Below, piece by piece: positions 6,601-43,885 of a DNA stretch of 50,016 bases. The stretch is from contig CANQPO010000005.1 of NCBI GenBank assembly GCA_947625695.1, positions 1-50,016 on the forward strand. Direction: 5' to 3'. Origin of the DNA: an uncultured Clostridia bacterium. GTDB lineage: Bacteria; Bacillota; Clostridia; Christensenellales; Borkfalkiaceae. Position 1 is the stretch's first letter. The number at the start of each line of letters is the position of its first letter. The position numbers were made by a program, and so were the translations under genes. The notes below the pieces were generated by a model that had not been told where the DNA came from, searched no databases, and saw only the letters and a list, made by a program, of their open reading frames with translations.

Positions 6601-6685
6601 TCCCCCACCCCCTTAATCCCCCTCCAGTGGAGGGGGTTCTGTTGGGCTACGCTTGCTCTCCCGTGGAGGAGGTGAAAATAAGGTG

Positions 6686-6707
6686 CCCCCTCCCCTACCC
6701 CTCCCCC
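6686..6707 (-). other. G-quadruplex motif, copy 1
   Basis: On the minus strand this reads G5-A-G4-TA-G4-A-G5: four G-runs of four or more with loops of only 1, 2 and 1 nt, a textbook stable quadruplex pattern. It is about 330 bp past the stop codon of the 3704-residue protein, on the strand that would be RNA if that transcript reads through. Confidence 0.8.
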
Positions 6708-6817
6708 GCTTACGCGAGGGCGGACAAGAACACCACCCACCCCCTTAGTCCCCCTCCAGTGGAGGGGGTTCTGTTGGGTTACGCTTGCCCTCCCGTGGAG
6801 GGGGTGAAGATAAGGTT

Positions 6818-6839
6818 CCCCCTCCCCTACCCCTCCCCC
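6818..6839 (-). other. G-quadruplex motif, copy 2
   Basis: The same G5-A-G4-TA-G4-A-G5 minus-strand motif, exactly 132 bp from copy 1 in the next tandem unit, with no base change. Confidence 0.8.
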
Positions 6840-6943
6840 GCTTACGCGAGGGCGGGCAAGGACACCACCCACCCCCTTAGTCCCCCTCCAGTGGAGGGGG
6901 TTCTGTTGGGTTACGCTTGCCCTCCCGTGGAGGGGGTAATGCG

Positions 6944-18306: not shown

Positions 18307-18338
18307 TAAAAAAACAGACTCCCTTGCGGGGAGCCTGC
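18307..18338 (-). terminator. Rho-independent terminator of the MoxR/vWA/lipoprotein operon
   Basis: In minus orientation GCAGGCTCCC and GGGAGTCTGT form a 10-bp stem with two G-U pairs and a 5-nt loop (18314-18338), followed by seven T (18307-18313). It lies about 25 bp after the stop at 18363, with an A-run before the stem as well. It separates the seven-gene operon from the giant gene downstream. Confidence 0.88.
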
Positions 18339-18362
18339 TTTTTTCGCTTCGTATGAGCGGCG

Positions 18363-21300
18363 TCAGTTCTCTTCGCCCTGTCCGCCCTGCTCGTCTTCTT
18401 CCTCTACTATGTCCTGAAGCTGCGTGACGGTCACGTAAGTTTCGCCGTTCCTTTCTTCAAGTTTAATGGAGTAGCGATGCCCGTTCGTCGCCGAGACGGT
18501 GTAGGTTTTGCTCACTTCGTCATAGGTGGAGGAGCTTGCACAATACTGCGTGCCTCCGCGCATGAAGCCCGCGACCTGCCCGTCTTCAAAGACATCGACG
18601 TTGTTGTAGGAATCGCCATAGTACGTGGCTTTATGCTCGGTCACGGTAACGGTCGCGTAAAGCGGAACGATTGTACCCGTCTCCGAGCTGTCCTCATTCT
18701 GATCGCCTTCGCCTTCCCCGCCTTCCGCGTCTTCGTCTTGCCCGCCTTCTTCTCCTTCACTCTTGCCGTCGTCATCGTCGCCGCCAACCTGCTCGGGATT
18801 TTCGTCGGTAAGAACAAGCTCGTAATAGGTGGTGGAAGTGATCTTGCCGCTGTTCACTCCTTCCGCGTCGGTTTCGAGATGTTCGCGGGTGCGGGAGATG
18901 CAATACGTTTTGTCCGTAAGCACAAGGATGGTCTCGACGTCGATCTCTGTGTCGCCCTTCTTGAGCGATACGTCATAGGGACTTCCGATCCTGCCGTTGA
19001 GGTCGGTTGCGAGCAGACGCTCGATCTCTACCGTATAGTCTCCGCTTTCCAGCGTTTGCACGCGGGTGCAAGCAACTAAGTCACAGCCGACAACATTGAA
19101 ATAAGAGTTTACGCTGAGCCCGAAGTAGAACTTGTAGGTGTATTCGCCATACTCCTGCGTCACGACAAAGAGATTGCCGTCTTTATCCAACTTATAATTC
19201 GCATGCTCGAGCTTGGTAACAACCGTGCCGTCCATCAGACGGATGTTGTGCTGCGCGCCGAGGTCCACATCGAGATACTGTTCCGTTAGATCGCCCTGCT
19301 CGTCGTACTCGCGCACGATGGTAATGTTCCCGTAAACGTTTTCAAACGTTCCCGAATAACCGAACATCGCAAGGAGGAAATAGAGAGCGTAATAGTAGTT
19401 GCTGTTTGCTCTTTGGATATAACGAAGCCCCACGACCTCATAGGTGTTGCCTTCTTCGCCGTGATAGGTCACTTCGATATCGAACCGATAGCCGGCGATG
19501 AGAAGGTAAAGCGCAAATTCCTCTTCTTGCCCTTCCTGCTCTTCCTCCCCTTCTGCGCTTATGATCTCGCGCACGACGGTGCATTGAAGCGCCTGCTCCT
19601 CGCCTTCGAAGGCGACTGCGCCGGTCACGCTGAATTCCGCACTGCCCGTAGGCTGGAAGGTGAGCAGACGGAGCGGCTTTTTGATCAAGTCGCCGTTCTC
19701 GTCTTCTTCGTAAGGAGCGGGATATTTATCTTTGGTGCTCTCCGCACGCTCGAAGCGGATGGGGAACCCGTTGTTGTTGATATAGGTGACGTCCTTGAAG
19801 GTGATGGTATCCTCAAACTTGCCGATCTCTTCAGACACAAAGCCGTATTCGTTTGCGTTTTCGTTCTCGGGGTCGCGCAGATAGACGGTGATCTCGCCGC
19901 TGCCGTCCACCGTGTAATAGTATTGCGTCTCGCCGTCCATGATCATGAACCCGTAGCGGGAGAAGCGCAGCGAGCGGAGGTCGGTGGTATAGTAGCCGTG
20001 CTCCGTATAATCGAGCTTTTCGATTGCGCCCGTCTCGGCGTCATAGCGGTAGATGCAGGCGTCCGTTTGCGCGGAATTCATATAGTAGAGGAGCTCCCCG
20101 TTGATGATGGTGTAAGTCCCTCTTTCTATCTGTCCGTACTTGTTGCGAAGCTCCGCATTTCCATGACCGTCGGGGACGAACACCGACCAGTCTTCCTCGT
20201 TGATATAGACGCGGCTGATCTCCTTATGTTCGACGGAGAAAACGCGATATCCCGAGGTCTCGGTGATAAGGATGATCCCAAGGATGCCCTTGAGTTCGAC
20301 CTTGCTGCCCGTTGCTTCTTCCTCATAGACGAGCGACCACAGATCGCCGTCCTTGCGGTATTCGCCGCTGCCGATGATCTCCTCTCCCTCTTCGTCGCTC
20401 TCTGCGAGGCGCAGGACCGTGAGCTTTCCGTAACCGTCGAAACGGAGCGCAACACCGCTGATATATTGGTTTTCAACGAGCAGATAGTCCGCAGCTTCGG
20501 GGCCGCGGCGGGTGAACGTGCCTCCCTCCTTGACGTCGAAGTAGTAGGTAACCGTGCCATCCTCATCGCTGAACAGGATCACGCCCTCTTCGGGAACCAA
20601 ATATCTCCCCTCGATGACATTCTCGTCCGCGTCGGTATAGCGCGCCTTGTAGGAGAAGCCGTCGAGCTTCAGTTTGCCGTCCTTCTCGGAAGTGAGCTCT
20701 TTTTCCATCGCGTTGAGCCGCGTGAAGTAGCTTGCGCTCGATGTGGAGAGCACTACGAAATCAAAGCCGCTCTCCGCGCTGTCTTTGGGAGTAAAGTGCA
20801 GAACGGGCGTTTCAAAAGCGGTGTCCTCCGCTTCGGAATAGGCGCCCTCTGTGACCTTGGGTTCTCCCTCTTCGGGGGTGACAGTGAGCGTTGCGCCGCC
20901 CTTGCCGTCAAAGGACAAGGTGACAGAGGAGTCCGCTTCGCCCGAGGCAAGCCGCTCTCTCAGCGTCCCGATGAACTTATCGAGCACAACGAACGTTTTC
21001 TTCTCACTATTAAGTTCAAAATAGAGATAGGTGTTGCCGTTTTGCACGCGGATGACGCCTGTGTAGCCGCTGAGCTGGGAATAGACCCCCGCGACTCTCT
21101 CCACGTCCTTCGCGCTGTAAACGGCGAAGCCGCCGACAAGGATGAGCTTGCCTTCATCGTCCTTCTCGCTCTTATATTCCTCGTCGTAATCGGTGGGCTC
21201 TTCGCCCTTGTAGGTGAAGGAATGCCAATAGGATACGTTGAGATTGGAGGCGACGCCGACGGAATAGACAAAGGAGTCAAGCCGCGTGACGTCGATGGGC

Positions 21301-23483
21301 TCGAGAATGAGCTCTCCTTCGGGATCAAGAGAGGTCTCTACCTTAAATTGATAGTTCCCCGTCTCTTCGTTGTAAGTGTAGGTGCCCTCGGCGACTTTGA
21401 GGAACTCTCTGTTTTCCGTATAGCCGTAAACAGAGGCCTTGTGCTCCTCCGCATTTTCGATCACAAGCAGAGGCGTGTAATAGTTTCTCCCTGCATTGCT
21501 CCTGTAATAGTACTCCGCATAGCCCGCATCCTTCTCTTCGAACACGCGCTTGAGCGTATTGTTTTCGTCCCTTTCGCTGCCGGTGAGATAGACATGCTTC
21601 CCATCATTCAGAAAGACGGAGACGATAGACCCGCCGAATGCGGAATCTTCCGCAACAAAGTACCCGCTCTTGGAAACGCCGCCCACCGTGACGACCGCAT
21701 TGCACGCGCCGTCTAGCTTGAGCGTGTTTCCGGCGTCGTCGGACGCCGTAAAGTCGAGCGCGCTGTCATAGAGCATATAACCTTCTCTCGAGCCGAACTT
21801 CACGAACTTGAACGTTCCGTAGAGAGAACCGCTCGTCGTGTAGAGGGAGAAGGTATCATTGGAGCCGGTCATGTAGAGATAATTGGTTTTCGAAGTCCCC
21901 ATATCCATGACGGCCGAGCCGAAGCCGTCCAGCTCGAGGAGATAGGCGCTCGGAACTGCCCCCATCTCACCGTCTTCCATGATGCCGCAGAAATACATCT
22001 GCCCGTGCGCGATGTCATCGTCCTCCCTTGCCATGAACACTCTCATGGGGGTGCCGCTCACCGTCACACTGCCGAAGAGCATTATAAGTTCGCTGCCCGT
22101 TTTCACACCGTCGGTGAACGTCGCATGGCAATAACCCTGCTCGTCGATATAATAGGTCCCTTCGGAGACCCCCGCCATGGAGGACCCTCCCCTTACCGTA
22201 TATTTGATCCCGTTGTATGCGTCAAGGGAGATCGTTTCGTAGGTGTAAACGCCTCTTCCGACGACATAGCGGTAATAGATCTGTCCGTCTCTCGCCTCGT
22301 TGTAATAGGCAAACCCGCTGCCGAAGAACTTCCCTTGAAGGGAGATGTTATCCGCTTTATCATAGAAGTAAAAGCTCTCCGTTGCGGTGACGTACTCGCC
22401 CTGATAATAGCTGCCGTACCGTTCGAGGATGAGGCGGTCGGTCTCGCCCTGCAAATGATAGATGACGTCCTCGCCGCCGAAGAGATCGGTATAACCTTCC
22501 TCCCAGATCGCGTAGAGGGTGGTGTCTTCGTCGAGGGATACTTTATCCTCCCGCTTGACGCCGTCGCCGTTGCGCAGAAGTCCGTCGATCACCTGAGAAG
22601 GATAATCTACCGTATCGACCACGCTGCGCGACCAGCCCATGAGGAGATACCCCTCCGCACGGAAGCGATCATAGGGCAAAACGACTTCGTCCCCATAGGT
22701 GAACTCAATCGTGACGATCTCATCGTCCATTCCTATGGGATAGTTGGAGAGGAGGGTGATCTGATAATGTCCTCTTTCGAGGTAAAACGTGAACACGTTG
22801 CTCGCGGGGTCCTCGGAGAGCGGACCGCTCTTGACTTCCCCTGCGTGCTCGGCGACTTCATAGCCCTTTACGGTGACGTCGGGGGTATAGTTCGCCGCGG
22901 GATAGTCGTAGCCTACAATATCCTCGCCCTGCTCAAACCCGTCACCTTCCTTCTGCAGCCAAACGTGCACGGTATAGCCCACCTTGTAGCGCGCGGTGAG
23001 CGTGACTTCGCTCTTCGGCATCTTGGCGCTCGGAGAAAGCGCGGCGCCGTTCATCTGCCACTCGCCGAATTGCCAGCCCGTGCGGGTGGGAACAAGGTCT
23101 TTTACAACGTCGGCAATCGTCTGCCCCTCTTTGGCATACAATTTCGGAGCGGAAAGCTGCCCGCCGCCGAGTTCGAGCTTGATCTCATACATCTGCTCCC
23201 ACTTGGCATAGAAGGTCTTACTGCTCTCCGCAACGACGGAAGTTACGGCATTGCCCGAAAGGTCGGCATTTTCGTACCAACCCTCGAAGCTGTACCCCTC
23301 CCTCTCGGGCGTGGGCAGCTGTACTTCGTCTCCGACAACCGCTACGATCTCCTCGATCGGAGCGCCGCCGTTTGTCTCGAAGCTCAATTTCACATCTTTT
23401 GTGGAGCAACCCGCCAGCACAAGACAGATCGCACTTGCAAAGAGCAAAATGCACGTGAGAATTTTCTTTCTGAAACTCTTCAT
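18363..23483 (-). CDS. Large InlB-repeat lipoprotein with repeated beta modules
   Basis: A 1706-residue lipoprotein. Residues 1-25 are a signal peptide with lipobox LAGC and acylated Cys26. Residues about 30-330 contain InlB/Listeria-Bacteroides-type repeats (REGYSFEGWYENADLSGN, TRTGWQFGEWQ, LLMGWSRSV). The rest is beta-rich, with a short module recurring as LxFDGxGxA...GxY: LDGFGSAVMDM, FDGKGGATLTV, LDGFSYKARYT, FDGYGKLTVL, PDGHGNAEL. An acidic Asp/Glu/Gly linker is at about 1565-1600 and the tail is EEEDEQGGQG. No enzyme or anchoring motif is recognised; surface adhesion or scaffold roles are guesses. The ATG at 23483 has GAAGGAG before it. It is the last gene of the operon, 32 bp after the LRR lipoprotein gene, and is followed by a strong terminator. 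Confidence 0.88.
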   Translation of the reverse strand: MKSFRKKILTCILLFASAICLVLAGCSTKDVKLSFETNGGAPIEEIVAVVGDEVQLPTPEREGYSFEGWYENADLSGNAVTSVVAESSKTFYAKWEQMYEIKLELGGGQLSAPKLYAKEGQTIADVVKDLVPTRTGWQFGEWQMNGAALSPSAKMPKSEVTLTARYKVGYTVHVWLQKEGDGFEQGEDIVGYDYPAANYTPDVTVKGYEVAEHAGEVKSGPLSEDPASNVFTFYLERGHYQITLLSNYPIGMDDEIVTIEFTYGDEVVLPYDRFRAEGYLLMGWSRSVVDTVDYPSQVIDGLLRNGDGVKREDKVSLDEDTTLYAIWEEGYTDLFGGEDVIYHLQGETDRLILERYGSYYQGEYVTATESFYFYDKADNISLQGKFFGSGFAYYNEARDGQIYYRYVVGRGVYTYETISLDAYNGIKYTVRGGSSMAGVSEGTYYIDEQGYCHATFTDGVKTGSELIMLFGSVTVSGTPMRVFMAREDDDIAHGQMYFCGIMEDGEMGAVPSAYLLELDGFGSAVMDMGTSKTNYLYMTGSNDTFSLYTTSGSLYGTFKFVKFGSREGYMLYDSALDFTASDDAGNTLKLDGACNAVVTVGGVSKSGYFVAEDSAFGGSIVSVFLNDGKHVYLTGSERDENNTLKRVFEEKDAGYAEYYYRSNAGRNYYTPLLVIENAEEHKASVYGYTENREFLKVAEGTYTYNEETGNYQFKVETSLDPEGELILEPIDVTRLDSFVYSVGVASNLNVSYWHSFTYKGEEPTDYDEEYKSEKDDEGKLILVGGFAVYSAKDVERVAGVYSQLSGYTGVIRVQNGNTYLYFELNSEKKTFVVLDKFIGTLRERLASGEADSSVTLSFDGKGGATLTVTPEEGEPKVTEGAYSEAEDTAFETPVLHFTPKDSAESGFDFVVLSTSSASYFTRLNAMEKELTSEKDGKLKLDGFSYKARYTDADENVIEGRYLVPEEGVILFSDEDGTVTYYFDVKEGGTFTRRGPEAADYLLVENQYISGVALRFDGYGKLTVLRLAESDEEGEEIIGSGEYRKDGDLWSLVYEEEATGSKVELKGILGIILITETSGYRVFSVEHKEISRVYINEEDWSVFVPDGHGNAELRNKYGQIERGTYTIINGELLYYMNSAQTDACIYRYDAETGAIEKLDYTEHGYYTTDLRSLRFSRYGFMIMDGETQYYYTVDGSGEITVYLRDPENENANEYGFVSEEIGKFEDTITFKDVTYINNNGFPIRFERAESTKDKYPAPYEEDENGDLIKKPLRLLTFQPTGSAEFSVTGAVAFEGEEQALQCTVVREIISAEGEEEQEGQEEEFALYLLIAGYRFDIEVTYHGEEGNTYEVVGLRYIQRANSNYYYALYFLLAMFGYSGTFENVYGNITIVREYDEQGDLTEQYLDVDLGAQHNIRLMDGTVVTKLEHANYKLDKDGNLFVVTQEYGEYTYKFYFGLSVNSYFNVVGCDLVACTRVQTLESGDYTVEIERLLATDLNGRIGSPYDVSLKKGDTEIDVETILVLTDKTYCISRTREHLETDAEGVNSGKITSTTYYELVLTDENPEQVGGDDDDGKSEGEEGGQDEDAEGGEGEGDQNEDSSETGTIVPLYATVTVTEHKATYYGDSYNNVDVFEDGQVAGFMRGGTQYCASSSTYDEVSKTYTVSATNGHRYSIKLEERNGETYVTVTQLQDIVEEEDEQGGQGEEN

Positions 23484-23515
23484 AAGGTTCTCCTTCTCAT
23501 TTTATTTTTCCGCTT

Positions 23516-26317
23516 TTATGCTTCTGTGGGTGCATAGACTGCATAAAGCGTGATATTTTCGGGAAGCGTGGGAAGATCGGACATCGCATATTCCGCCTCC
23601 GTCGCATTCTCAACCGTGGACCAGCCGAGGAAGGTATATCCCGCGCGAGCGGGCGCCGAAAGTCCGCCGCGCGCCGTTGTTCCGCTGATCCCCGACGACG
23701 AAATGGAAGAAACATACCCCTCCTCGGACACGGCAGTCCCCCAGACAACGGGACGGAACGAGGCGTTCCACCTTGCGCTCCAACCGTCGGGAGCCGTTTC
23801 AAACGGAGCGTAAACCGTCAACCCGACGCAGCCGTAGAAAGCATATCTGCCCATCTTCTCGATGCTCTCGGGCAAAACGACGGAATCCAATCCGCAATAG
23901 AGGAAGGCAAACTCGCCCACAGAGCGGAGCCCTGCGGGAAGGGTGACCTCCTTCAATTTCGACAAGAGACCGAAGGCGTAGTCGCCGATCTCTTCCAGCC
24001 CGCCGCCGAAGTTGATCTTCTCCACAGCGGCGCATTGCAAAAACGCGCCCTTGCCGATCTTTTTCAAGGAGTCGGGCAGGTTGAGCTCTGTAAGCGTCTG
24101 GGCATAACGGAACGCATATGCACCGAGCTCCTCCAATCCCTCATTAAACGTAACGGACTGCAGGGCGAGGCTCAGCATAAACGCGCGGTCCCCGATGGAG
24201 GTAACGGAGGAGGGAATGACGAGTTCCTCCGCCGAATTGTGATAGAAAGCCATCGCGCCGATGGTTTTCAGGCCCTCGTTCAGGACCAAACGCTCTACCG
24301 ACTCGCAGCTATAGAACGCAAGTTCCCCGACGCTCTCGAGACGGGGGCAGCCGGAGAGATCGATCTGCGTCAATTTATCGCATTGGAAGAAAGCGCCCAA
24401 TCCGATGGAGCGAAGCGTAACGGGGAATGTCCCGACCCCCGTAAGCTGTACACACTGGAAGAAAGCAAAGGGCGGGATCTCTGTAAGGTTATTGTTCAAT
24501 CTCACCTCGGTAAGCGCCCTGCAATCCATGAACGCCCCCTCGCCGATGTAGCGGACGCGGCTGAGTCCCTCGACGGACATGAGCGTCTCGCTTTCCGAAA
24601 ACGCATAGTCGGCGATCCCGATGACGTCGTCTTTGAGAACAACAGCGGCTATGTTGCGCTCCGTATCATATCCCACTACCCAATTTGCCGCATAGATCAC
24701 GCCATATGCATCGGAAACGGTATAGAGCCCTGTATCAAGGAAGGCGTTCTGCCCGATGTGAGTGACGGTATCGGGGATCAATTTCGCCCCGTTTGAGCGG
24801 TTATTGAGCGAAGGGCACTTGCTGAAAGCATATGTTTCGATGGACTTTAAGCCGACGCAGTTATCAAACGAAACATTGGAGAGAAATCCGCAATTACGGA
24901 AAGCCGATCTGCCCACTGTTTCAAGCAAAGAATTCCTCTCCATCTCCACCTTCCACAATTTCGGGCAGCGGTTGAAGGCATATTCGCCGATATATTTCAA
25001 AGAACTCGGAAATTCGACGGTAAGCAGTTCGGTACATCCGTAAGCCGTTCCCGCCGTAGTCGTTCCCGATTGGAAAGAATTGTCTGCAATGCCGACGATA
25101 TTCTCGTGGAAATCGGAGGCGGCAAGCGCGGTAAGCCCGTTCTTTACCTCCTCGGGAACATAAACAAGCCAATTCCCCACATAGGCGATCCCCTCCTGTT
25201 CGCTCAGAATGGGCGTGTCGCGGAAGGCATTGACCCCGACTCTTTTCACGCTTTCGGGGATCGTCACCGTCTTGAGCCGGCCGTCGCCGTCGAAACAGGA
25301 ATCGGGAACGTTCGCCGTGCCCTCGGGGAGAACGCACTCCGTGAGCGCCGTACAATCGGAAAATACCCCCGTTCCCAATGTCAATTCCTCATATTCCTCC
25401 GCAAACGTCACGGAAGTGAGCGACTTGTCGAGCAAAAACGCATAGTCGCCCGCGCTCTTGAGCCCCTTGCCTAAGGTGACGGAAGAGAGCGCATCCGCAT
25501 GGGAAAAAGCGTATTCACCGATCGTCTCCACACTGTCGGGGATCGCGGCCTCCTTGAGCGCAACGCAATAGTAGAAAGCCGAGTCGCCGATGCTCTTCAC
25601 CGTTTCCAAAATCGTAACGGAGGAAAGCGCGGAGCAATAGGCATAGGTATAGTTGGGGATCGCCGTGATTGCCGCAGGCAGATCGGCCTTTTCCAAAACC
25701 GTGCAACCGTAGAAGCATGATTCGCCGATAGAAGCGATCGTATCCGGAAGCGTGACCGTCTTTAACGCAGCGCAGTTGTAAAACACCCGAGTGCCGAGCG
25801 CGTTTACTTTCTCGCCGAGCGTCACGGAGGTCACCTGCTGGTTGTTGCGGAACGCGCCGTCCCCGATTTCGGTGACGGGCTTCCCGCGGTAAAGATCTTC
25901 GATCACGACGTCTCCCACCGAAGCGCGGGCGGAAGTCAGCGCCCACGCCGTTCCGTCGTCGATCGCTCTATACGTATATCCGTTGTCTGCGATCTTGTGA
26001 AAGGCAACCGCCTCCGACCATTCGGATGCGCTGTCCCGCGAACTCACCGCGCGCACGCGGATATCGTAATCTCCCTCCGCGAGCGAAAACAGGTTGTACG
26101 TGGGACGGCGGGCAGAGCGGCTTATGACGGCGCCCGTGATATCGGTGATCTCCAATTCATAGCTGCGCGCTCCCTCTACTGAGGACCAATTGAGGTTGTC
26201 CTCCTCGTCCAAGTAGAAATTCACGGGCACGGCAAGCGTCTCTTTCCCGCATGCCGAAGCGGCAAAGGTAATAAACAGAAGAAGGATCGCCGCGATCGTT
26301 GCATTTAACTTTTTCAT
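23516..26317 (-). CDS. BspA-type LRR lipoprotein with FN3-like and InlB domains
   Basis: A 933-residue lipoprotein. The signal ends in ASAC with Cys23 as the predicted lipid site; alanine at -3 makes it a slightly weak lipobox. Residues about 25-115 resemble a fibronectin-type III domain (LNWSSVEGARSYELEI, YDIRVRAVS). About 150-850 are LRR_5 repeats (AFxxCxxLxxVxLPxxLxxIG). About 880-933 is one InlB-type repeat (ARAGYTFLGWSTVE). The ATG at 26315-26317 overlaps the TGA at 26314-26316 of the upstream vWA gene, so the two are probably translationally coupled; GGCGGAGAAGCAACA precedes it. I prefer this start to an in-frame ATG at 26371 because the latter lies deep in the upstream gene and would place 18 hydrophilic residues before the signal peptide. 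Likely a surface-displayed binding protein made together with the vWA machinery. Confidence 0.88.
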   Translation of the reverse strand: MKKLNATIAAILLLFITFAASACGKETLAVPVNFYLDEEDNLNWSSVEGARSYELEITDITGAVISRSARRPTYNLFSLAEGDYDIRVRAVSSRDSASEWSEAVAFHKIADNGYTYRAIDDGTAWALTSARASVGDVVIEDLYRGKPVTEIGDGAFRNNQQVTSVTLGEKVNALGTRVFYNCAALKTVTLPDTIASIGESCFYGCTVLEKADLPAAITAIPNYTYAYCSALSSVTILETVKSIGDSAFYYCVALKEAAIPDSVETIGEYAFSHADALSSVTLGKGLKSAGDYAFLLDKSLTSVTFAEEYEELTLGTGVFSDCTALTECVLPEGTANVPDSCFDGDGRLKTVTIPESVKRVGVNAFRDTPILSEQEGIAYVGNWLVYVPEEVKNGLTALAASDFHENIVGIADNSFQSGTTTAGTAYGCTELLTVEFPSSLKYIGEYAFNRCPKLWKVEMERNSLLETVGRSAFRNCGFLSNVSFDNCVGLKSIETYAFSKCPSLNNRSNGAKLIPDTVTHIGQNAFLDTGLYTVSDAYGVIYAANWVVGYDTERNIAAVVLKDDVIGIADYAFSESETLMSVEGLSRVRYIGEGAFMDCRALTEVRLNNNLTEIPPFAFFQCVQLTGVGTFPVTLRSIGLGAFFQCDKLTQIDLSGCPRLESVGELAFYSCESVERLVLNEGLKTIGAMAFYHNSAEELVIPSSVTSIGDRAFMLSLALQSVTFNEGLEELGAYAFRYAQTLTELNLPDSLKKIGKGAFLQCAAVEKINFGGGLEEIGDYAFGLLSKLKEVTLPAGLRSVGEFAFLYCGLDSVVLPESIEKMGRYAFYGCVGLTVYAPFETAPDGWSARWNASFRPVVWGTAVSEEGYVSSISSSGISGTTARGGLSAPARAGYTFLGWSTVENATEAEYAMSDLPTLPENITLYAVYAPTEA

Positions 26318-29109
26318 TGTTGCTTCTCCGCCTTGTTCGCTTTGTGTTCCCGAATGATCTCGTGCAGCCATTTGAATTTGAACTTACGCACCAAAATATC
26401 GATCAGGAAGAGTATGATCGACGTGATCATGAAGAGAATGCGCGGATCGTAAACCCTTTCGAATTCGGTGACGAATTCTTCGAAAACGCTCCACGGGGAA
26501 TATTCATCGACCTCTTTGCCGCCGCCCCGTTCGGAGAGTTGCGCAAGCAGGGCGCCGCTGTCCGTAGAACCGTCGGTGTCCTCCCATGTGGAATACTCCT
26601 TGGAATAGGCGAACGCCTTATACAGCTCCGCCTCCGCTTTCACCTCGCCGTCCGCGCCGATCTTGCGCACCGTTATGCGGTAAAGACCGCTGTTTTTGGC
26701 GACGAAGTTGCAACGGGAGTAGCTGTTCGCCGCGCTCAAATAGGTGGTAACTTGCAAATCGTCCGATATTTCCTCTTCCGGCGTGGAGAGAGAGACCTTG
26801 CTCCCATCTCCGAGATAAACGATCTCGCCATCTATCCTCTCCCCTCCTTCGACGTCGAGGGAGGCGGAAATGCCGAGCTGGTTGATGTAATTTTCTTCGC
26901 GCAAATTGAGGGTGATTTCGCTCGAGCGGATATTCTCCGTCGGCATAAGATTTCCGACGACGTTGCGCAAAAAGAGTCTCCCGTTGGCGTCCGCCAAGAA
27001 TGCAGAGGACCATTCGCCATAGACGTCGCACATAAAACTGCCGACCATTCCTTTCCCGAACTTCCACTGCGAATAAATGGGAACACCGTATTCGCCCACG
27101 ACGACCGTGTCTGCGCTTGCGCGGGCGCGGGTGCCGTAAAATCCGTCGAGGGTGGTTTTCAGCCGCCACCGCGTGGCGAGCCCGCCGCCTTCCTCTTCTT
27201 CCTCAAAATCTTCGTGTTCGATTCCCGCCGCAAGATTGGAGAGCGGATCGACGATCACGGGATGGAATTCCACTTGATCGGTCTCTTTGATCGCGGGCGC
27301 GCTCAGATCGTCCTGCATCAACGCGCCGAGACGGGAGAGATCGTCTACCATGTACAATTTCCCGCCGCAGCTCGACGTCAAACGATCCATGGCGTCATAT
27401 TGGCCGCTCGGCATCTGGATCGCAACCACGGAAATGGTGATCTCGTTTTCCCTATAGAATTTTTCGGCGATGGGGAGATATTGATCTTCCGCCTCGGTCG
27501 GCGCGCCGTCCGAAACGATAATGATGTGGCGTTTATCGACCTGTTTCAGAGAGCGCAGCGCTTCTCCCGCGCGGCTGATCGCGCTGGAGTAAGTGGTGTT
27601 CCCTTGAATTTTCACCGACTCGATGGCCTCTTTGATGATGGCGTCCTGTGTGCGGCGTGTGGGCTGCAAAATCGTCCCATACGTCGTAGAGAGGGTGACG
27701 ATCCCCACGTAATCTCTGTCCGTGAGCACGTCAAGACAGTCTACGGCGCCCTCCTTTGCCGCCTCGAGCTTATCGCCTTGCATCGAACCCGAGACGTCGA
27801 TGACGATCTCGACCCCTACGGGAGGGGTGTAATCAATGGCTTGCACGGGGAGCATCTGTTGATAGAGAGTATTTACGAGGTCTCTCCGGTTGTAGGCGTG
27901 CGCCTCCCCTTCGACCGTTCCGCCCGTGGTGAACAAGCCGCCGCCGACCGTGCTCACATAGCTGTAAAGCAGGGCGTCAAACCCCGCGGGCAGGTCGGAA
28001 TTTGCAATATTGTTGAGAATGACCTGATCATAGTTCCTGAGAGCGTCGAGCGACTTGGGCACCTTCTCCGGCTCCATTTTGACGTTGACGACGTCCGCCG
28101 AATAAGGGATCTCCGCTTCCTTGAGAATTTCAACGAGTTGCTGCGACTGGTCCTGCTGTTCCAGAATGAGCACCCTCGTGAATACTTCAACGTTAAAGAA
28201 AGAATGATACTCGTTGTTATTTTCGAGCGTATCGCCGTTGACGCTTGCGCGCACGACGATCTCGTGAACGCCTTGCTCGGTGAAGGTCTTGCGGAAAGAG
28301 ACGATCTGCGTCCCTGGAATGAGTTCCACTTCCTTGGTCTCGGACACTTGGCTCTTATCGCCTTTGTCGGTCAGTTCCACAGTGGCCACGCTGCCGTTGG
28401 TGACGCCGAAAAGCTCCACATCGACGGAACATTCCTCATTGAGCCCCACATGATAGGTAGGGAATGTAATGTTCGTGACGCGGACGCCGTCCGTTTCAAC
28501 CGCCTCGGAAATATTGACAGTATCTATTTTGATCCCCTGCGCGGCAATGGAGCGGGCGACCGAGCGGGCGTTTTCATCCGTCTGCTGTCCGTCGGAAACA
28601 AGCACGATCTTTGCCGTTTCGGGATGTTCGAAGAGGGTCGCGGCATAGCGGAGCGCCGCCGCAATATCCGTTGCGGTGGTGTCGGGCAATTCCGACTCGT
28701 AATAAGCGTTTATGATGCTGTCCGTATCGAACGTGAAAGGAACGGCATAGCGCTGGTCGAATCCGAATGTCACGATCCCCATCTTAAAGCCGTCGTAGCC
28801 GCCCTCCGTGACGACTTCTTCCACAAAGGCATCCCGCCTGTCCGAACAGATCTGCTGGGTATCGGACATGTCCACGAGAATCAACACTTCATTTTCATCG
28901 TTATGCACGGTGTAGTGGAAAGAAATGCCGGAGAGCGCTAAAATGGCGAGCAGCATGACGATCCCGTGCATCACCATGGAGATAATGCGGTTGCGGGTGC
29001 GTCTGTACCGCTTGGAGAGAAAAAAGTACGGAAGCACCGTAAGAACGGCAGCGGGGATCAGCAGAAGAAGCAGCCACGGATATGTGAAATGTATGGAAAA
29101 TCCTTGCAT
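26314..29109 (-). CDS. vWA-domain membrane protein with two vWA folds
   Basis: A 931-residue membrane protein. Transmembrane segments are at about 11-31, 45-63 and near 885-905, so the bulk faces outside. The first vWA-like domain starts at LILVDMSDT, with Asp80-x-Ser-x-Thr as a possible metal site. Around 300-410 is a glutamine-amidotransferase-like fold without a recognisable catalytic Cys. The second vWA domain has a full MIDAS start, DVSGS at 438-442, with IIIVSDGAPTEAED further on. Such proteins partner MoxR ATPases and bind a divalent metal through the MIDAS. The ATG at 29109 follows AAGGAGGAAGGAAC. It lies 12 bp after the BatA-type gene and overlaps the LRR lipoprotein gene by 4 bp. 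Confidence 0.9.
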   Translation of the reverse strand: MQGFSIHFTYPWLLLLLIPAAVLTVLPYFFLSKRYRRTRNRIISMVMHGIVMLLAILALSGISFHYTVHNDENEVLILVDMSDTQQICSDRRDAFVEEVVTEGGYDGFKMGIVTFGFDQRYAVPFTFDTDSIINAYYESELPDTTATDIAAALRYAATLFEHPETAKIVLVSDGQQTDENARSVARSIAAQGIKIDTVNISEAVETDGVRVTNITFPTYHVGLNEECSVDVELFGVTNGSVATVELTDKGDKSQVSETKEVELIPGTQIVSFRKTFTEQGVHEIVVRASVNGDTLENNNEYHSFFNVEVFTRVLILEQQDQSQQLVEILKEAEIPYSADVVNVKMEPEKVPKSLDALRNYDQVILNNIANSDLPAGFDALLYSYVSTVGGGLFTTGGTVEGEAHAYNRRDLVNTLYQQMLPVQAIDYTPPVGVEIVIDVSGSMQGDKLEAAKEGAVDCLDVLTDRDYVGIVTLSTTYGTILQPTRRTQDAIIKEAIESVKIQGNTTYSSAISRAGEALRSLKQVDKRHIIIVSDGAPTEAEDQYLPIAEKFYRENEITISVVAIQMPSGQYDAMDRLTSSCGGKLYMVDDLSRLGALMQDDLSAPAIKETDQVEFHPVIVDPLSNLAAGIEHEDFEEEEEGGGLATRWRLKTTLDGFYGTRARASADTVVVGEYGVPIYSQWKFGKGMVGSFMCDVYGEWSSAFLADANGRLFLRNVVGNLMPTENIRSSEITLNLREENYINQLGISASLDVEGGERIDGEIVYLGDGSKVSLSTPEEEISDDLQVTTYLSAANSYSRCNFVAKNSGLYRITVRKIGADGEVKAEAELYKAFAYSKEYSTWEDTDGSTDSGALLAQLSERGGGKEVDEYSPWSVFEEFVTEFERVYDPRILFMITSIILFLIDILVRKFKFKWLHEIIREHKANKAEKQQ

Positions 29110-29121
29110 GTTCCTTCCTCC

Positions 29122-31098
29122 TTATGATTTATCCCGCGAATGCAGCGCCCATTCCGCGAATAGCAATACGACGAGCGCCGCGGCAAAGTAGACGAGAAGG
29201 TCGTCGTAAAAGCTCATGGCTTCCCGCTCTGCAAACGGATTTACGAGCGTATCCATCTCGAGATTGATGTTGCTTTCCTCTGCGGGCGGACGCACGAAAA
29301 TGTACTCCGTTTGCGCGCGTTTCCCGAAATAAGTCGTTACGTCAAAGCTGTAGGTCCCCGGGGTTTGGAGATCGAGCGTCGCAGGGAACTCCTCGATGGG
29401 TTCATCCTCCCCCGAAAAGAACACTCTGGCCCCCCTCCCGTTCACCGTGAAGCGTTCTCCCACCTCATAGGAGCTCTTTTCCACCGTGGTGGGCAGGAAA
29501 TAATCGAAGAGATTATACATCAGTATGGGCCACTCGGGCAACATGGCGATGTTGGAATAGTGCACGCTGAACGCTATGACGGCGGTCTTGACGTCCTGGT
29601 CGTTGCGGGCAAGCATGACGGGCGCGCCGTTGCACGACATGAGCACCTCATAGTCGTTGGAATAGTTGAGCTCAATATACGAACTGACCTGTATATTTTC
29701 GACGATCAGATTGCGCAGCAACGGATGATCGGACTTCTCCGCCGTCAGAGGAGTATGCGGGTTATTCAGATTGATCTGCCGTAGCGCGGTAATATCCGAA
29801 CCGACAGGAGACCCGAGTGGATCGAACAGGAGCACGACGCCGTCCGTGGGAAGATCTTTGGGCATCGTGTGCTCGAAAATATACACGTCGAAGCCCGAAA
29901 GCTCGGGGTCTGCGCCCTGCTGGACTTCGGTGATCTTGATATCCCACCGCGAGGAAAGCGCATTCGTCAAAGCGGCAAGAATGCCGTTGACAAAGGGGTT
30001 TGCCCCGACTGTATTCCTACCCCCGCTCGCGTACTGCACCTTGACGACTTCTTTGAGACCGCCATAGATATAGAAGTTGTTGTCGAGCGTGAGATCGTCC
30101 GCTTCGTCCACATAGACGTCGATTGTACGGAAGGTATGAAACCGTTCTTCGGCGCCGAGATCGTAATAGAAGATGTCCTGCGTATCTTCCCCTTTCCCAT
30201 AGCGGAAGATGACCGTCTTGGTCTGGTCGGCGTCGCAAAAGATCGTGCGCGAAAGGACGGGCATATCCACACCGCCGTTCTCCGAGTCAATGGCGTTTGC
30301 GCCGTGGACCTGCACGTTCAGTTCCACCTCGCGGTCCTCGCCGTAGCTTGCGAGCTCTACCGTGAGCTGGTAATAGCCGTCGTCCAACTCCGCGCGGGCG
30401 TCGAGAATGGCGACGTTTCGCTCACCCTCCTCGCGCACGGAAACAACTTCGATTTCCTCCGGAACGTATTGATAAGATTTATCGGTATAGACCTTTATTT
30501 TCGCATACGGATTTTCCGCAAGCACTTCCTCAGATAGCTCCATCGCTTCATCCAGATCGGAGGTACCGTAAGAGCAGAGCATCTCGCCGCTCTCGGGGTC
30601 CTCTTTGAGTCCGTTGAGGGAAGCGATGAGTTCGCTGCGGCCGCCCGAAGTGACCCGCTGGCACAGATAGTAGGGCGAATCGTCGGCAAGGATGACGGAG
30701 ACCCGCCCGCCCGCATCGAGGACGCGGTTGCTCTCGGCAATCGTCAGATCGACCGCGCGCGTAAAGCGGTTGCTCTCCTCCGATCCCGTGTACATGCTCA
30801 TGGAAGAGTCGATAACGGCGATAAGTTCGTTGTCCTCCCCTGCCGTTTCGTACACAATGGCGGGTTCTGCGAGAATGAGCGCCATCGACACGAGGATAAG
30901 GATCTGGCAAATAAACAGAAGCAGATTGCGGATCTTGCTCGTAGGTAATTTTTTCTTTTTATATTTCAGACTCAATTTCCAGACATAAGTACTTGAAACG
31001 TGCTTCGTCAAATAATTTGGTCTGATGATATAAATGAGGATAAGCCCCAAGACGCCGAGCAGTCCCAGCAGTCCGAGGGGCAAAAGTAATTGCATCAT
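29122..31098 (-). CDS. BatA-type vWA membrane protein
   Basis: A 658-residue protein with the N-terminal arrangement of BatA/aerotolerance-type proteins: membrane segments at about 5-25 and 57-79 separated by a basic loop with LSLKYKKKKLPTSK. A vWA domain follows, beginning VIDSSMSM (Asp97-x-Ser-x-Ser), a good MIDAS start. A long beta-rich extracytoplasmic region comes next, and a final membrane segment near 632-652 ends in a short charged tail. Its start overlaps the stop of the DUF58 gene (ATG at 31096-31098, TGA at 31095-31097), and no strong ribosome binding site is present, which points to coupled translation. A second ATG directly follows and could also be used. In known systems this protein works with MoxR and the DUF58 protein. 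Confidence 0.9.
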   Translation of the reverse strand: MMQLLLPLGLLGLLGVLGLILIYIIRPNYLTKHVSSTYVWKLSLKYKKKKLPTSKIRNLLLFICQILILVSMALILAEPAIVYETAGEDNELIAVIDSSMSMYTGSEESNRFTRAVDLTIAESNRVLDAGGRVSVILADDSPYYLCQRVTSGGRSELIASLNGLKEDPESGEMLCSYGTSDLDEAMELSEEVLAENPYAKIKVYTDKSYQYVPEEIEVVSVREEGERNVAILDARAELDDGYYQLTVELASYGEDREVELNVQVHGANAIDSENGGVDMPVLSRTIFCDADQTKTVIFRYGKGEDTQDIFYYDLGAEERFHTFRTIDVYVDEADDLTLDNNFYIYGGLKEVVKVQYASGGRNTVGANPFVNGILAALTNALSSRWDIKITEVQQGADPELSGFDVYIFEHTMPKDLPTDGVVLLFDPLGSPVGSDITALRQINLNNPHTPLTAEKSDHPLLRNLIVENIQVSSYIELNYSNDYEVLMSCNGAPVMLARNDQDVKTAVIAFSVHYSNIAMLPEWPILMYNLFDYFLPTTVEKSSYEVGERFTVNGRGARVFFSGEDEPIEEFPATLDLQTPGTYSFDVTTYFGKRAQTEYIFVRPPAEESNINLEMDTLVNPFAEREAMSFYDDLLVYFAAALVVLLFAEWALHSRDKS

Positions 31099-31994
31099 GA
31101 CATGACACCAACCTTCAGAAGCTCTCCGAAGAGGACGCGTTCAATGGGCTCCTCCGTGCTGACAGAGAGATACCCCACTCCCCTCCTCTTGCAGAAAGAG
31201 GAGATGTCCTCGATGAAATCATGAAACGCCTCCGCATAGGCGGCCTGCAAGCCGCGCGTAATGCGGACCTTCATATTCCTCGGGTCGGACACATCCACCG
31301 ACTCCGCGTCGATGAGGTTCATCCGTCCGTCATAGGAGGGGTCGATCTCCTCCGGCGTCAAAACCTGCACGAGGAGCACCTGCCGCTTCTTGTAGAGTAA
31401 ATAATCGACTGCCTTCTTCCAGTCGCTCTCGGTGAAAAAGTCGGAGATGATCACGGACAGCCCGTTGTTTTCGCCTGTATCCGTACAGCTCTTTACGCTC
31501 TTTTCAATATCAGTTTCTCCGTCGAACATCGCCTGTTCCAATCCGCCCATCGCGCGGAAAAAGGCGTTCTTTCCCACCATCGTGCCGAACGGGTTCTCCG
31601 ACTTCCCTTCCCTAAGAAAATTGATCGAGAGTTTATCCATGTTCTGCACTGCCAAAAAGCCGAGCGCCGCTGTCGCAGCCACGGCATATGCAGCCTTATG
31701 CGGATCCTCGCTGCCCATCGACGCAGAGCAGTCCAAAAACAGCTGGACCTGCATCTGTCTCTCGTCCGTGTACAGCCTCAGAAAGTACTTCTCAAACCGG
31801 CTGAACAAATTCCAGTCGATCCGGCGAATATCATCGCCCAGCTGATACTCCCTGAAATCGGCAAACTCCACCGTCTGACCATATGTCTTTACCAGGTGTT
31901 TCCCGCCGAAATATCCCGCAAGGCTCGATTTCAAATTCAATGACATCGCCTCCAGCCTGCTGAAGAACGCGTCGTTCAAAAGGGAACCTTTCAC
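31095..31994 (-). CDS. DUF58 family protein
   Basis: A 299-residue protein matching DUF58, the usual partner of MoxR. The family signature FREYQLGDDIRRIDWN is at about 47-62. A vWA-like fold follows with LFLDCSASMGS (Asp88-x-Ser-x-Ser), suggesting a metal site. There is no membrane segment or signal peptide, so it is cytoplasmic and probably links MoxR to the membrane vWA proteins. The start is GTG (31992-31994) with AAAGGCGGAAACAA upstream. No better in-frame ATG is available before the conserved region. It starts 19 bp after the MoxR gene and overlaps the BatA-type gene by 4 bp. Confidence 0.92.
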   Translation of the reverse strand: MKGSLLNDAFFSRLEAMSLNLKSSLAGYFGGKHLVKTYGQTVEFADFREYQLGDDIRRIDWNLFSRFEKYFLRLYTDERQMQVQLFLDCSASMGSEDPHKAAYAVAATAALGFLAVQNMDKLSINFLREGKSENPFGTMVGKNAFFRAMGGLEQAMFDGETDIEKSVKSCTDTGENNGLSVIISDFFTESDWKKAVDYLLYKKRQVLLVQVLTPEEIDPSYDGRMNLIDAESVDVSDPRNMKVRITRGLQAAYAEAFHDFIEDISSFCKRRGVGYLSVSTEEPIERVLFGELLKVGVMS

Positions 31995-32013
31995 TTGTTT
32001 CCGCCTTTCTTTC

Positions 32014-33009
32014 TTATGACTTCCTGTACTTCTTCTCTACTTCTTCAATGACCATGTTGATAACGTCATCCGCCGAAACACGCTCTGCTACCGCCTCGAA
32101 GTTGAGTTTAATACGGTGACGGAGTACGGGGAACGCAAGCTCGAGAAGATCGTAATATGCAACGTTGAACCGCCCCTTGATGAGCGCAAGCACCTTCGCC
32201 GCCGAGATGATCGCCTGTCCCGCACGGGGGCTCGCCCCGACGCGGATATACTTCTTCGCCGCTTCGGTGGCGCACTCTCCCTCGGGGTGGGTGGCTGCGA
32301 CCAAGATCATGGCGTACTTCAACACATCCTCCGCAACGGGGATCTGGTTGGCAGTCTTGCGCATCTGCAGAAGCTCTTCCCCCGTGCATGCCTTCTCCGC
32401 CACCTCTTCCATCGTCTTTTGGGTGAGGCTGACGATCTGAAGCAGTTCCTCCAAAGAGGGATCGGGCACGAGAAGTTTGAACATGAAACGGTCCATCTGC
32501 GCTTCGGGCAGAGGATAGGTACCGTCCTGCTCGATGGGGTTCTGCGTCGCGAGAACGAAGAAGGGCTCATTGAGCTTCCTCGACACGCCCATGACGGTGA
32601 CTGTGTGCTCCTGCATGGCTTCAAGCAGAGCCGACTGCGTCTTCGGCGTTGCACGGTTGATCTCATCCGCCAAAATGATGTTACTGAAGATGGGCCCGGG
32701 CTGGAAACTGAACTGCGAGTTGCCCTGATCGTCCTTTACGATGATGTTGGTACCCGTCACGTCCGCGGGCATGAGGTCCGGCGTAAACTGGATACGCGAG
32801 AAGGGAAGATCAAACACTCTTCCCAAAGAGCGCACAAGACGCGTCTTGCCGACCCCAGGCACGCCTTCGAGAAGGACGTTGCCCCCTGCGATCATTGCGA
32901 TGACCGTCCCCTGGACGACCTTCTCCTGCCCGATCACGTCCCGCGCGATCTGCTTGAATATGTTCGTGCATTGTTCACTGAATTGACTGATGTCCTTTTC
33001 TGTTACCAT
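32014..33009 (-). CDS. MoxR family AAA+ ATPase
   Basis: A 331-residue ATPase of the MoxR group, thought to remodel or help mature partner proteins with ATP. Walker A is GVPGVGKT (49-56), Walker B is IILADE (111-116), and sensor 1 lies in FVLATQNPIE (151-160). The lid contains MDRFMFKLLVPDPS and the arginine-rich GASPRAGQA motif typical of MoxR. Length is normal for the family. It heads the MoxR, DUF58, BatA-type, vWA order seen in Bat-like and MRP-type operons. The ribosome binding site is weak (AGAGAGACAG). The 71-bp gap upstream is AT-rich with no convincing promoter or terminator, so transcription probably comes from the membrane-protein gene before it. Confidence 0.95.
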   Translation of the reverse strand: MVTEKDISQFSEQCTNIFKQIARDVIGQEKVVQGTVIAMIAGGNVLLEGVPGVGKTRLVRSLGRVFDLPFSRIQFTPDLMPADVTGTNIIVKDDQGNSQFSFQPGPIFSNIILADEINRATPKTQSALLEAMQEHTVTVMGVSRKLNEPFFVLATQNPIEQDGTYPLPEAQMDRFMFKLLVPDPSLEELLQIVSLTQKTMEEVAEKACTGEELLQMRKTANQIPVAEDVLKYAMILVAATHPEGECATEAAKKYIRVGASPRAGQAIISAAKVLALIKGRFNVAYYDLLELAFPVLRHRIKLNFEAVAERVSADDVINMVIEEVEKKYRKS

Positions 33010-33080
33010 TGATCTGTCTCTCTTTTATAAAATAATTTTTCTTTATAAAATAAATTTATTTAAGATGCTTGCGTTTTTTG
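33010..33080 (-). other. AT-rich spacer with 14-bp palindrome before moxR
   Basis: This gap contains the palindrome AAATAAATTTATTT (33048-33061) and two copies of TTTATAAAATAA. I could not pair any TATAAA here with a -35 at proper distance. It may be a weak promoter, a protein-binding site, or simply an A/U-rich leader that helps moxR translation. Confidence 0.4.
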
Positions 33081-34286
33081 TTAGGGAAGCAGCCCCGAGC
33101 CGCCGCCCGAGCCTTCACCCGTGCCGTCGCCCGAGCCTTCGCCTGAGCCGCCCGTGCCGATATTTCCGTAATAGTCGGAGACCACGTCTTTTACACTGTC
33201 GGGGATGTTGCTGTCCGAACCGAGGCGGTCCTGCGCGTCTCCGTAGGAATCGCTGAAGGAATCGCCGTAGTAGTGCTGGCCGTCAACAATCTGTTGGTTG
33301 GTGACGTCGTGGCGCGAATTTGCGGGATCGTCGTTATTATTGTTGCCGTCTTCTCCGTCCTCGCCGCCTTCGCCGTCTTCGTAGCCTTCGCCGTCTTCGC
33401 CGCCGTCATCGGTGGGATCGCCCGGCTGTCTCTCCAAGTATTCATCCGGACCGATGTCCTCCACATCGAAGCCGAGCAGGACAAACGTCGCCGAAACTTC
33501 GAGGTTTCCTTTGACGTTCACATCCTGACGGTAGGGATCGCGCACGCCGTCCGACCAGCAGACAAACGCATAGCCTGTAGCGGGAACGGCATAAACGGCG
33601 GGAGCGTCCTCCCCCTCCTTGACCTCGATATCTCCCTCGACGGGAACGAGTCCTTCGGTGGGATCGTCAATGCTCCCTACGCTCGTTGTCCACTCGTCCG
33701 TGCAATACACGATCGTGCCGGTGTTGACGCCGGAAGCAACCTTATAGGTGCATACAAAGGTGCGCACGGGCTTGCTGCCCTCGATGAGCTCCATGCCGCT
33801 CGGAATGACGTCCGCATAGTAGAGGGAGGACACTGCGGTGCCGCCCGCAAAGCCGACGACGAGCGATACGGTGAGAAAGACGATGAGCGCAACCGACACC
33901 ACGATCTTCAAAAGCATGGAGTCCATCGACTTCATGGCATGGACGGCGTCCTCGCGCTGGCGGGTAGCGATGTAAGAATCGTCCCCTTCGAGCTCGAGCA
34001 TGGTGATGAGCCGCTCTTCGAGGCCCAAGGCGTCCACGCGGACGGCGATCTGCTTGGTGGTGGGTTTGAATTTAAAGAAGTAGAGCGGCAGCGATGTGGC
34101 GAGGAAGGCCACGCCGAACATGCCGAGCGCAAGCCAAAGCCCCGCGCGGAAGCCGAAGAACCAGCTGAAAAGCGCGGTGACAAGAAGCGCGCAGCTCCCT
34201 GCAATGAGTCCGTAGAAGAGGGACTTGAGGACCCCTTCCTTTACGATACGCTTGTGATACTTTTTGAAAAGAGGATTTGTTTTCAT
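33081..34286 (-). CDS. Operon membrane protein, DUF4175-like N-terminus with InlB-type domain and acidic tail
   Basis: A 401-residue protein, first gene of the MoxR cluster as it now stands. Two hydrophobic segments at about 20-75 are followed by KQIAVRVDALGLEERLITML, which resembles the DUF4175-type proteins often found beside MoxR. A third membrane segment is at about 125-150. Residues about 200-285 hold a divergent InlB-type repeat (VPATGYAFVCWSDGVRD). The rest is low-complexity: an Asp/Glu/Gly run near 295-325 and a Gly/Ser-rich end. The low-complexity part likely lies outside the cell as a flexible stalk. The ATG at 34286 follows TAGGAGTG. The domain calls are by pattern, and the DUF4175 link is only a resemblance. 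Confidence 0.75.
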   Translation of the reverse strand: MKTNPLFKKYHKRIVKEGVLKSLFYGLIAGSCALLVTALFSWFFGFRAGLWLALGMFGVAFLATSLPLYFFKFKPTTKQIAVRVDALGLEERLITMLELEGDDSYIATRQREDAVHAMKSMDSMLLKIVVSVALIVFLTVSLVVGFAGGTAVSSLYYADVIPSGMELIEGSKPVRTFVCTYKVASGVNTGTIVYCTDEWTTSVGSIDDPTEGLVPVEGDIEVKEGEDAPAVYAVPATGYAFVCWSDGVRDPYRQDVNVKGNLEVSATFVLLGFDVEDIGPDEYLERQPGDPTDDGGEDGEGYEDGEGGEDGEDGNNNNDDPANSRHDVTNQQIVDGQHYYGDSFSDSYGDAQDRLGSDSNIPDSVKDVVSDYYGNIGTGGSGEGSGDGTGEGSGGGSGLLP

Positions 34287-34327
34287 GTTTTTACACTCCT
34301 ATCCTTTTTTTCTTATATATGCATATG

Positions 34328-34362
34328 CCCTCCGCGAAGATCCAAGCGGAAATTCGCGGGGG
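34328..34362 (-). other. Hairpin in the 135-bp gap after the giant LRR lipoprotein gene
   Basis: CCGCGAA (34332-34338) pairs with TTCGCGG (34353-34359), extended by CCC/GGG across one bulge. No T-run follows on the minus strand. A small GGGGA/TCCCC hairpin lies nearer the stop codon, also without T. I see no -35/-10 pair for the downstream gene here. The gap may therefore be a read-through or processing site rather than a transcript end. Confidence 0.45.
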
Positions 34363-34421
34363 GAAACTGCATTCGTCAGATGAAACTCACCGACATTTCG
34401 GGGATGGCTCCCCTTTCGGCG

Positions 34422-43574: not shown

Positions 43575-43607
43575 ATAGATACTGCTCCTTTATAAAACTA
43601 TAAATAT

Positions 43608-43636
43608 AGTATAGCATCTCGCCAAAATTGTGTCAA
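43608..43636 (-). promoter_or_regulatory. Strong sigma-A promoter of the giant LRR lipoprotein gene
   Basis: On the minus strand a perfect TTGACA (43631-43636), a 17-bp spacer and TATACT (43608-43613). The region upstream (43637-43800) is A/T-rich and could act as an UP element. It contains no gene, and I see nothing else in it apart from a 7-bp hairpin CAGCCCG/CGGGCTG at 43809-43825. This is one of the best promoters in the window. Confidence 0.88.
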
Positions 43637-43834
43637 ATTAAATTGCCGCATTTATTTATAAAAATCCCTTATATTTCCCCTGAATTCGTGTTTTTTGGTT
43701 TATATTTGCACTTTAAGTGAATATTTTCCAAAAAATTTTGATTTCTTCACAAAATATGATATCAGCGATCATCCGACGCCGTTCGCGGGAAAAACAAAGG
43801 GGAATTTTCAGCCCGAGGCGGGCTGGAAAAGGGC

Positions 43835-43868
43835 AAAAAAAGCTGCCGGACGGGGTGCATCCGGCAGC
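43835..43868 (-). terminator. Rho-independent terminator of parE-parC
   Basis: GCTGCCGGA (43842-43850) pairs with TCCGGCAGC (43860-43868) around a 9-nt loop. On the minus strand seven T follow (43835-43841). It lies about 17 bp after the parC stop codon. Confidence 0.9.
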
Positions 43869-43885
43869 CGAACTATAATTTCCCT

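Follow-up and report, generated by a model that had tools for sequence, protein, structure and literature searches.

Operons that combine a MoxR ATPase, a DUF58 protein and von Willebrand factor A (vWA) proteins are widespread, and to our knowledge the target of the membrane type of these vWA proteins is mostly unknown. The locus described here raises the question whether large lipoproteins encoded in the same gene block are the partners of such a system. It lies in a window of 50,016 nucleotides (contig CANQPO010000005.1, positions 1 to 50,016) of an uncultured Clostridia bacterium of the Borkfalkiaceae, the assembly of which (GCA_947625695.1) has 1.89 Mb in 93 contigs and is 81.6% complete. 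Its minus strand carries, in this order, genes for a lipoprotein-like protein of 3050 amino acids (aa), a membrane protein here called A, MoxR, DUF58, a BatA-type vWA protein, a membrane protein with two vWA domains (double-vWA protein), a leucine-rich repeat (LRR) lipoprotein and a 1706-aa lipoprotein (P1706; Table 1). The seven genes from A to P1706 had been singled out in the original prediction, made from the sequence alone, and all were found at the positions and in the families given there. Their linkage is real and conserved, and the block is probably larger than these seven genes. The reading we prefer, to which we give a probability of about 0.5, is that the gene block is no chance neighbourhood but encodes a membrane vWA complex, with the lipoproteins as its extracytoplasmic subunits or dedicated partners and a cytoplasmic MoxR/DUF58 motor to serve it.

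Conservation of the gene order

In the family, 94 of 201 genomes have a match to the double-vWA protein at E 0.001; at E 1e-30, the order search gave matches in 45 of 297 genomes and the class search in 40 of 291, both including members of the narrower groups. Gene order was compared in 123 loci: the window itself, 80 loci of the family, 25 that came from the order search and 17 of other orders. These sample 80 places of the family listing, 25 of 31 places outside the family and 17 of 39 outside the order; fragments, weak hits and some full-length ones were excluded. The labels ignore open reading frames (ORFs) shorter than 150 aa in this comparison and shorter than 100 aa in a second, named set of loci, the organisms of which partly overlap with the first. 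The expression used to label lipoproteins is loose, since it flags A by its transmembrane helix and can miss true cases; a 138-aa ORF with a lipobox-like start 3' of the vWA gene in locus L187 was not flagged.

An LRR lipoprotein is encoded directly 3' of the vWA gene in 70 of the 123 loci. In the vWA tree a single branch separates precisely these 70 from all other loci, and a single change accounts for the LRR slot, compared with a mean of 40.0 changes after shuffling and no value as low in 500 shuffles. They come from six families (f1, f3, f6, f19, f29 and f32), all belonging to one order of Clostridia. The named set gave the same arrangement in 27 of 30 loci; L052 leaves no room for the gene, and L050 and L051 are without the LRR lipoprotein. 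The expectation that such lipoproteins follow the vWA gene more often than by chance was thus borne out among close relatives. As far as the vWA tree tells, the LRR version of the slot arose once.

Slow rearrangement of the genomes was controlled for with the first ORF of at least 150 aa beyond the unit, which is similar in just 124 of 2016 pairs (64 loci). The neighbourhoods have therefore been reshuffled around the unit. On its upstream side an LRR-type gene lies 5' of A in 41 of 48 loci, where it is often cut by the locus end. Residues 262-640 of the giant protein, which are outside the LRR part, align in all 13 loci with that region intact; 15 loci had been picked for their upstream sequence, mostly since an LRR fragment had already been seen there, and 13 of them hold the N-terminal part. 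In Anaerocaecibacter muris CLA-AA-M11 (L042) the vWA gene is followed by an LRR lipoprotein gene, A is preceded by a gene for an LRR protein of 1562 aa or more, and no second lipoprotein was recognised on the contig.

Conserved gene order is strong evidence for the linkage, unlike the repeat domains. The original prediction had pointed to a repeat type shared by A and the giant proteins on both sides. Flg_new-type domains do occur in these proteins, but about 37 reading frames genome-wide contain LRR_5 and 17 contain Flg_new, which makes shared LRR_5 or Flg_new domains too frequent to serve as proof. The InlB-type domain announced for A was recovered as a Flg_new_2 match of 24.7 bits (cut-off 23.6) at residues 221-268, predicted to be external. 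It was found in A at 36 of 54 loci with the LRR lipoprotein versus 6 of 30 without it (Fisher 8e-5, kinship uncorrected). All 42 genomes listed with a P1706-type match of at least 250 bits, a threshold placed at a gap in the scores (250.6, then 185.8), fall within the 94 of 201 genomes with a vWA match (kinship uncorrected).

Predicted arrangement and competing explanations

MoxR matches AAA_3 (3.6e-62) and AAA_lid_2 (5e-16) and is encoded next to DUF58 and vWA genes, as is characteristic of the MoxR AAA+ family; both Walker motifs, A and B, are intact in all 60 sequences compared. MoxR also matches bpMoxR at 37.2 bits (cut-off 27); no beta-propeller family was found in the unit, which thus does not correspond to a MoxR-vWA-beta-propeller ternary system. 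Neither MoxR nor DUF58 has a transmembrane helix. The DxSxS motif and the later Asp of DUF58 are each present in 64 of 64 sequences. The BatA-type protein (BatA 4.4e-07, VWA_2 1.7e-08) and the double-vWA protein each have three transmembrane helices, two N-terminal and one C-terminal, and accordingly neither is a soluble vWA protein of the NorQD or RavA-ViaA kind. By prediction, the vWA domains of both proteins lie outside the cell, as the loop that joins helices 1 and 2 is positively charged; these topologies were derived from hydropathy and charge for the proteins of the window. Both vWA domains of the double-vWA protein retain the residues of the metal ion-dependent adhesion site (MIDAS) in 52 of 52 near relatives, with exchange of S and T allowed in the first domain.

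Protein A has a stretch predicted to be cytoplasmic between its second and third helix (residues 63-127), into which five of the eight columns invariant among 54 relatives fall. A weak resemblance to DUF4175 was seen in 8 of these 54 (best 1.2e-4) and in 1 of 30 A proteins from loci without the LRR lipoprotein. The lipobox Cys of the LRR lipoprotein is kept in at least 95% of 51 sequences. About 1500 aa of P1706 that follow the N-terminal repeats have no Pfam or NCBIfam match, and a solved structure related to this body was sought with the InlB-type repeat alone being matched.

From these features the following arrangement can be proposed. BatA and the double-vWA protein would sit in the membrane with their vWA domains facing outside, and A would span it with the conserved stretch inside and the InlB-type domain outside. 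The MIDAS sites would hold the LRR lipoprotein extracellularly and, in many species, also the second large lipoprotein and the giant LRR lipoprotein. Since the vWA domains are predicted to be outside, a MoxR ring could not reach them directly as NorQ reaches NorD (PMC9976466); with DUF58 as adaptor, it may instead act on the inner part of A or on loops that A, BatA and the double-vWA protein expose to the cytoplasm, and thereby assemble, reset or release the outer complex. Its role at the surface may be adhesion, ligand sensing or glycan binding.

The ATPase genes are not always part of the block. In seven copies A leads straight to BatA, and the vWA protein and LRR lipoprotein are retained with neither MoxR nor DUF58 between (L084, L089, L094 and L100 in the family; L045, L047 and L057 in the named set). 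In L151 DUF58 is missing and MoxR is truncated at the end of the contig. As contigs often end at MoxR or DUF58, absence was counted only where A adjoins BatA. Four of the seven genomes (G033, G068, G752 and G754) encode MoxR at another place, and G017 has only short fragments of it; assembly gaps may account for some of the absences. The seven copies weaken the description of the system as ATP-driven. A wider form of our reading, which we offer tentatively, would be a trans-envelope machine in which the two membrane vWA proteins, A and the giant LRR/InlB lipoproteins are the permanent parts and the ATPase is a shared motor absent from some copies; a single MoxR/DUF58 pair might then work in trans on several surface complexes. 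As a separate observation, four vWA copies (L109, L110, L111 and L112) and three DUF58 genes were counted in G200, where the MoxR of the window has no match; in two of these copies an LRR lipoprotein gene lies just 5' of A and overlaps its start by 4 bp.

Several points weigh against the lipoproteins being dedicated partners. Because of their single origin, the 70 cases do not count as independent replicates of the link, and the branch that unites them has a support of 93, under the value of 95 that the tool marks with a star. The second lipoprotein is replaceable: the slot after the LRR gene holds a P1706-type protein in 46 of the 70 loci, an unrelated Big_3 lipoprotein in 13, another gene in 10 and a contig end in one. 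Of the two lipoproteins in the predicted linkage, the InlB type is the less constant. In 21 of 45 loci more than 60 bp, and up to 398 bp, lie between the LRR gene and the second lipoprotein gene, which makes a single transcript less sure there. Both this genome and G084 also have P1706-type genes outside the operon (L199-L201). A promoter-like site with 10 of 12 matches inside the BatA gene (29541-29512) could drive a separate transcript of the vWA and lipoprotein genes; a single transcript, as first claimed, is likely. The middle MIDAS position of DUF58 is T or S in just 34 of 64 sequences, and the MIDAS of BatA is less constant as well (first Asp in 58 of 59, last Asp in 45 of 59). The search for MoxR was negative in G753 and in G135, which is 95% complete. 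Finally, a lipoprotein of the LRR, P1706 or Big_3 type follows the vWA gene in none of the 17 loci of other orders and in none of the four loci of family f4. A core without these lipoproteins, named beforehand as the pattern that would speak against a link if seen in close relatives, thus does occur in more distant ones, at all 17 loci of other orders.

Those 17 loci all contain DUF58-BatA-vWA, and in 13 of them both A and MoxR were recognised. The exceptions are L182, which is cut by the contig end, and L188, L189 and L198, where neither A nor MoxR was recognised beside the three genes; the latter three belong to family f53. Nearer lineages have Big_2 proteins in the slot (L113 and L114), another lipoprotein (L115) or a lipoprotein of about 500 aa plus one of 770-1230 aa. 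The lipoproteins of about 500 aa in the distant group were rejected as homologues of the LRR protein or P1706, with the signal peptide alone aligning, and so were the larger ones, whose best alignments cover about 100 N-terminal columns with P1706 and about 175 with the Big_3 set. In family f4, the core of L161 and L179 is directly preceded by ABC-2-type transporter genes, perhaps the older context; the permease match in L161 falls below the Pfam cut-off. As the slot elsewhere holds no lipoprotein of these types or is filled by non-homologues, the core does not depend on these proteins and one lineage added them; the comparison points to an old core that gained external partners.

The lipoproteins may alternatively be clients, i.e. 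the MoxR/DUF58/vWA machine would be a chaperone that folds, loads or exports them, as the original prediction had it. There are precedents: MoxR ATPases mature specific complexes such as NorQD (PMC9976466), MoxR1 was reported to interact with the secreted RipA (as cited in PMC12067865), and the authors of the PFNA study propose that MoxR may fold a secreted FN3 protein (PMC8430577). However, the many LRR_5 and Flg_new frames of this genome stand against one DUF58 gene, found as a single copy in the 81.6% complete genome, and one vWA match of the double-vWA kind; P1706-type proteins occur outside the operon, and the seven copies lacking the ATPase genes retain the LRR lipoprotein. We therefore regard such a chaperone role as possible but doubtful. 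It appears unlikely that the lipoproteins bind an external ligand and report it through A and the vWA proteins to MoxR/DUF58, since the unit has no gene recognisable as an output, such as one for a kinase or a transcription factor, even though A joins a conserved cytoplasmic stretch to a variable external part and the ligand-type domains in the slot differ by lineage (LRR, Flg_new, Big_2, Big_3). Still less probable is that the lipoprotein genes were inserted once and retained by co-transcription with no shared function. The single origin and the swapping of the second lipoprotein agree with this idea, but the LRR gene was never lost in 70 loci of six families, although MoxR and DUF58 are missing from several copies and the flanks differ, and its presence goes along with the Flg_new_2 domain of A. 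A conflict system was dismissed, as no effector or propeller gene was recognised among the eight proteins and the main text of PMC7159879 is without DUF58 or BatA.

Borders of the unit and neighbouring features

The lipoprotein genes follow with overlaps or gaps of at most 32 bp, as had been noted: 12 bp separate BatA from vWA, vWA and LRR overlap by 4 bp, and 32 bp lie between LRR and P1706. Further upstream the distances are 135 bp (3050-aa gene to A), 71 bp (A to MoxR), 19 bp (MoxR to DUF58) and -4 bp (DUF58 to BatA). The LRR gene most likely starts at ATG 26317, which overlaps the vWA stop codon in an ATGA, rather than at the start of the longest ORF (26371). The terminator claimed for the end of the unit was also recovered, with 16 pairs and a T run.

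A promoter-like site upstream of the 3050-aa gene, the best one in 33000-46400, lies 3' of the gyrA terminator (43869-43841) and is likely the start of the block transcript, on the basis of its consensus match; promoter-like sites as such are not enriched (10 found versus 9.1 expected from shuffles). The scan of the minus strand lists neither a promoter-like nor a terminator-like site between the 3050-aa gene and A, and the unit may thus begin upstream of A, at the giant lipoprotein gene.

The 3716-aa protein downstream was rejected as a member of the unit. Its gene lies 3' of the terminator and has a promoter-like site of its own (18254-18226), and the protein has no relatives among those of the loci that were searched with it (phmmer, 1e-4). 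The only RNA element found in the window at gathering thresholds is a tRNA-Pro, which lies about 600 bp from a tandem array. The operon-free P1706-type genes are at L199:8355-12152, L200:3493-8550 and L201:9110-14341; those of L200 and L201 stand beside a gene for a lipoprotein of about 550 aa, possibly a second two-gene unit.

Table 1. Features of the window, from the gyrase genes upstream of the block to the far end of the stretch.
Feature	Position	Strand	Remarks
gyrB	46305-48365	-	5' of block
gyrA	43886-46318	-	5' of block
Sigma-70-like promoter	43608-43636	-	TTGACA-17-TATACT, TG before -10; 11/12 matches; consensus match only
Lipoprotein-like protein, 3050 aa	34422-43574	-	lipobox-like N-terminus; 4 Flg_new and 19 LRR_5 stretches
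A, 401 aa	33081-34286	-	three transmembrane helices, Flg_new_2, acidic/Gly-rich tail
MoxR-family AAA+ ATPase, 331 aa	32014-33009	-	AAA_3 and AAA_lid_2
DUF58 protein, 299 aa	31095-31994	-	DUF58 match
BatA-type membrane protein, 658 aa	29122-31098	-	one vWA domain; BatA and VWA_2
Double-vWA membrane protein, 931 aa	26314-29109	-	two vWA domains; also a weak GATase1-like match
LRR_5 lipoprotein, 951 aa	23516-26317	-	one C-terminal Flg_new repeat
Lipoprotein P1706, 1706 aa	18363-23483	-	Flg_new/InlB-type repeats near N-terminus
Intrinsic terminator	18308-18344	-	closes unit; 16-pair stem, T run
Protein, 3716 aa	7037-18187	-	internal repeats, C-terminal Flg_new domains
Tandem array	6604-6937		132-bp units, 2.5 copies, 96% match
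tRNA-Pro	5924-6000		
LRR_5 protein, 373 aa	365-1486	-	GTG start
ORF opposite the 373-aa gene	308-1498	+	no Pfam match

Relation to known systems

Gene order conserved over six families names candidate partners for the membrane type of vWA protein, and in some copies the genes for membrane proteins and lipoproteins occur apart from those of the ATPase. As Anaerocaecibacter muris CLA-AA-M11 is a named strain, the question of partnership may be open to direct testing. Judging by their record titles, many of the carriers live in the gut, where the lipoproteins probably belong to the surface that the cells present to their environment. No report of this gene cluster was found among the titles and abstract openings listed by literature searches.

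The Bat (Bacteroides aerotolerance) operons share MoxR, DUF58 and a BatA-type vWA protein with an N-terminal pair of transmembrane helices. They carry in addition the TPR (tetratricopeptide repeat) proteins BatC and BatE as well as BatD, whereas none of the eight block proteins has a TPR or BatD match. The mycobacterial moxR1-DUF58-vWA operon beside ripAB likewise combines MoxR, DUF58 and a membrane vWA protein with adjoining genes for exported proteins, as described in PMC12067865; RipA, however, is a cell wall hydrolase, while here large repeat lipoproteins are encoded inside the block. NorQ/NorD and RavA/ViaA resemble the present system in that a MoxR ATPase with a MIDAS-bearing vWA partner acts on a target complex, but NorD and NorQ are described as soluble (PMC9976466), in contrast to the membrane-anchored vWA proteins found here.

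The PFNA operon of Bifidobacterium (pkb2-fn3-MoxR ATPase-duf58-tgm), for which folding of the secreted protein by MoxR has been suggested, is likewise from a gut bacterium and joins genes for a MoxR-type ATPase and DUF58 to that of a large, modular secreted protein (PMC8430577). It differs by its Ser/Thr kinase and transglutaminase-like protein, neither of which was found among the eight proteins, and the present block differs by the BatA-type and double-vWA proteins, gene A and three lipoproteins. The concept of MoxR/DUF58 together with a large secreted protein is therefore already published; the particular gene set did not turn up in the titles and abstract openings that were searched.

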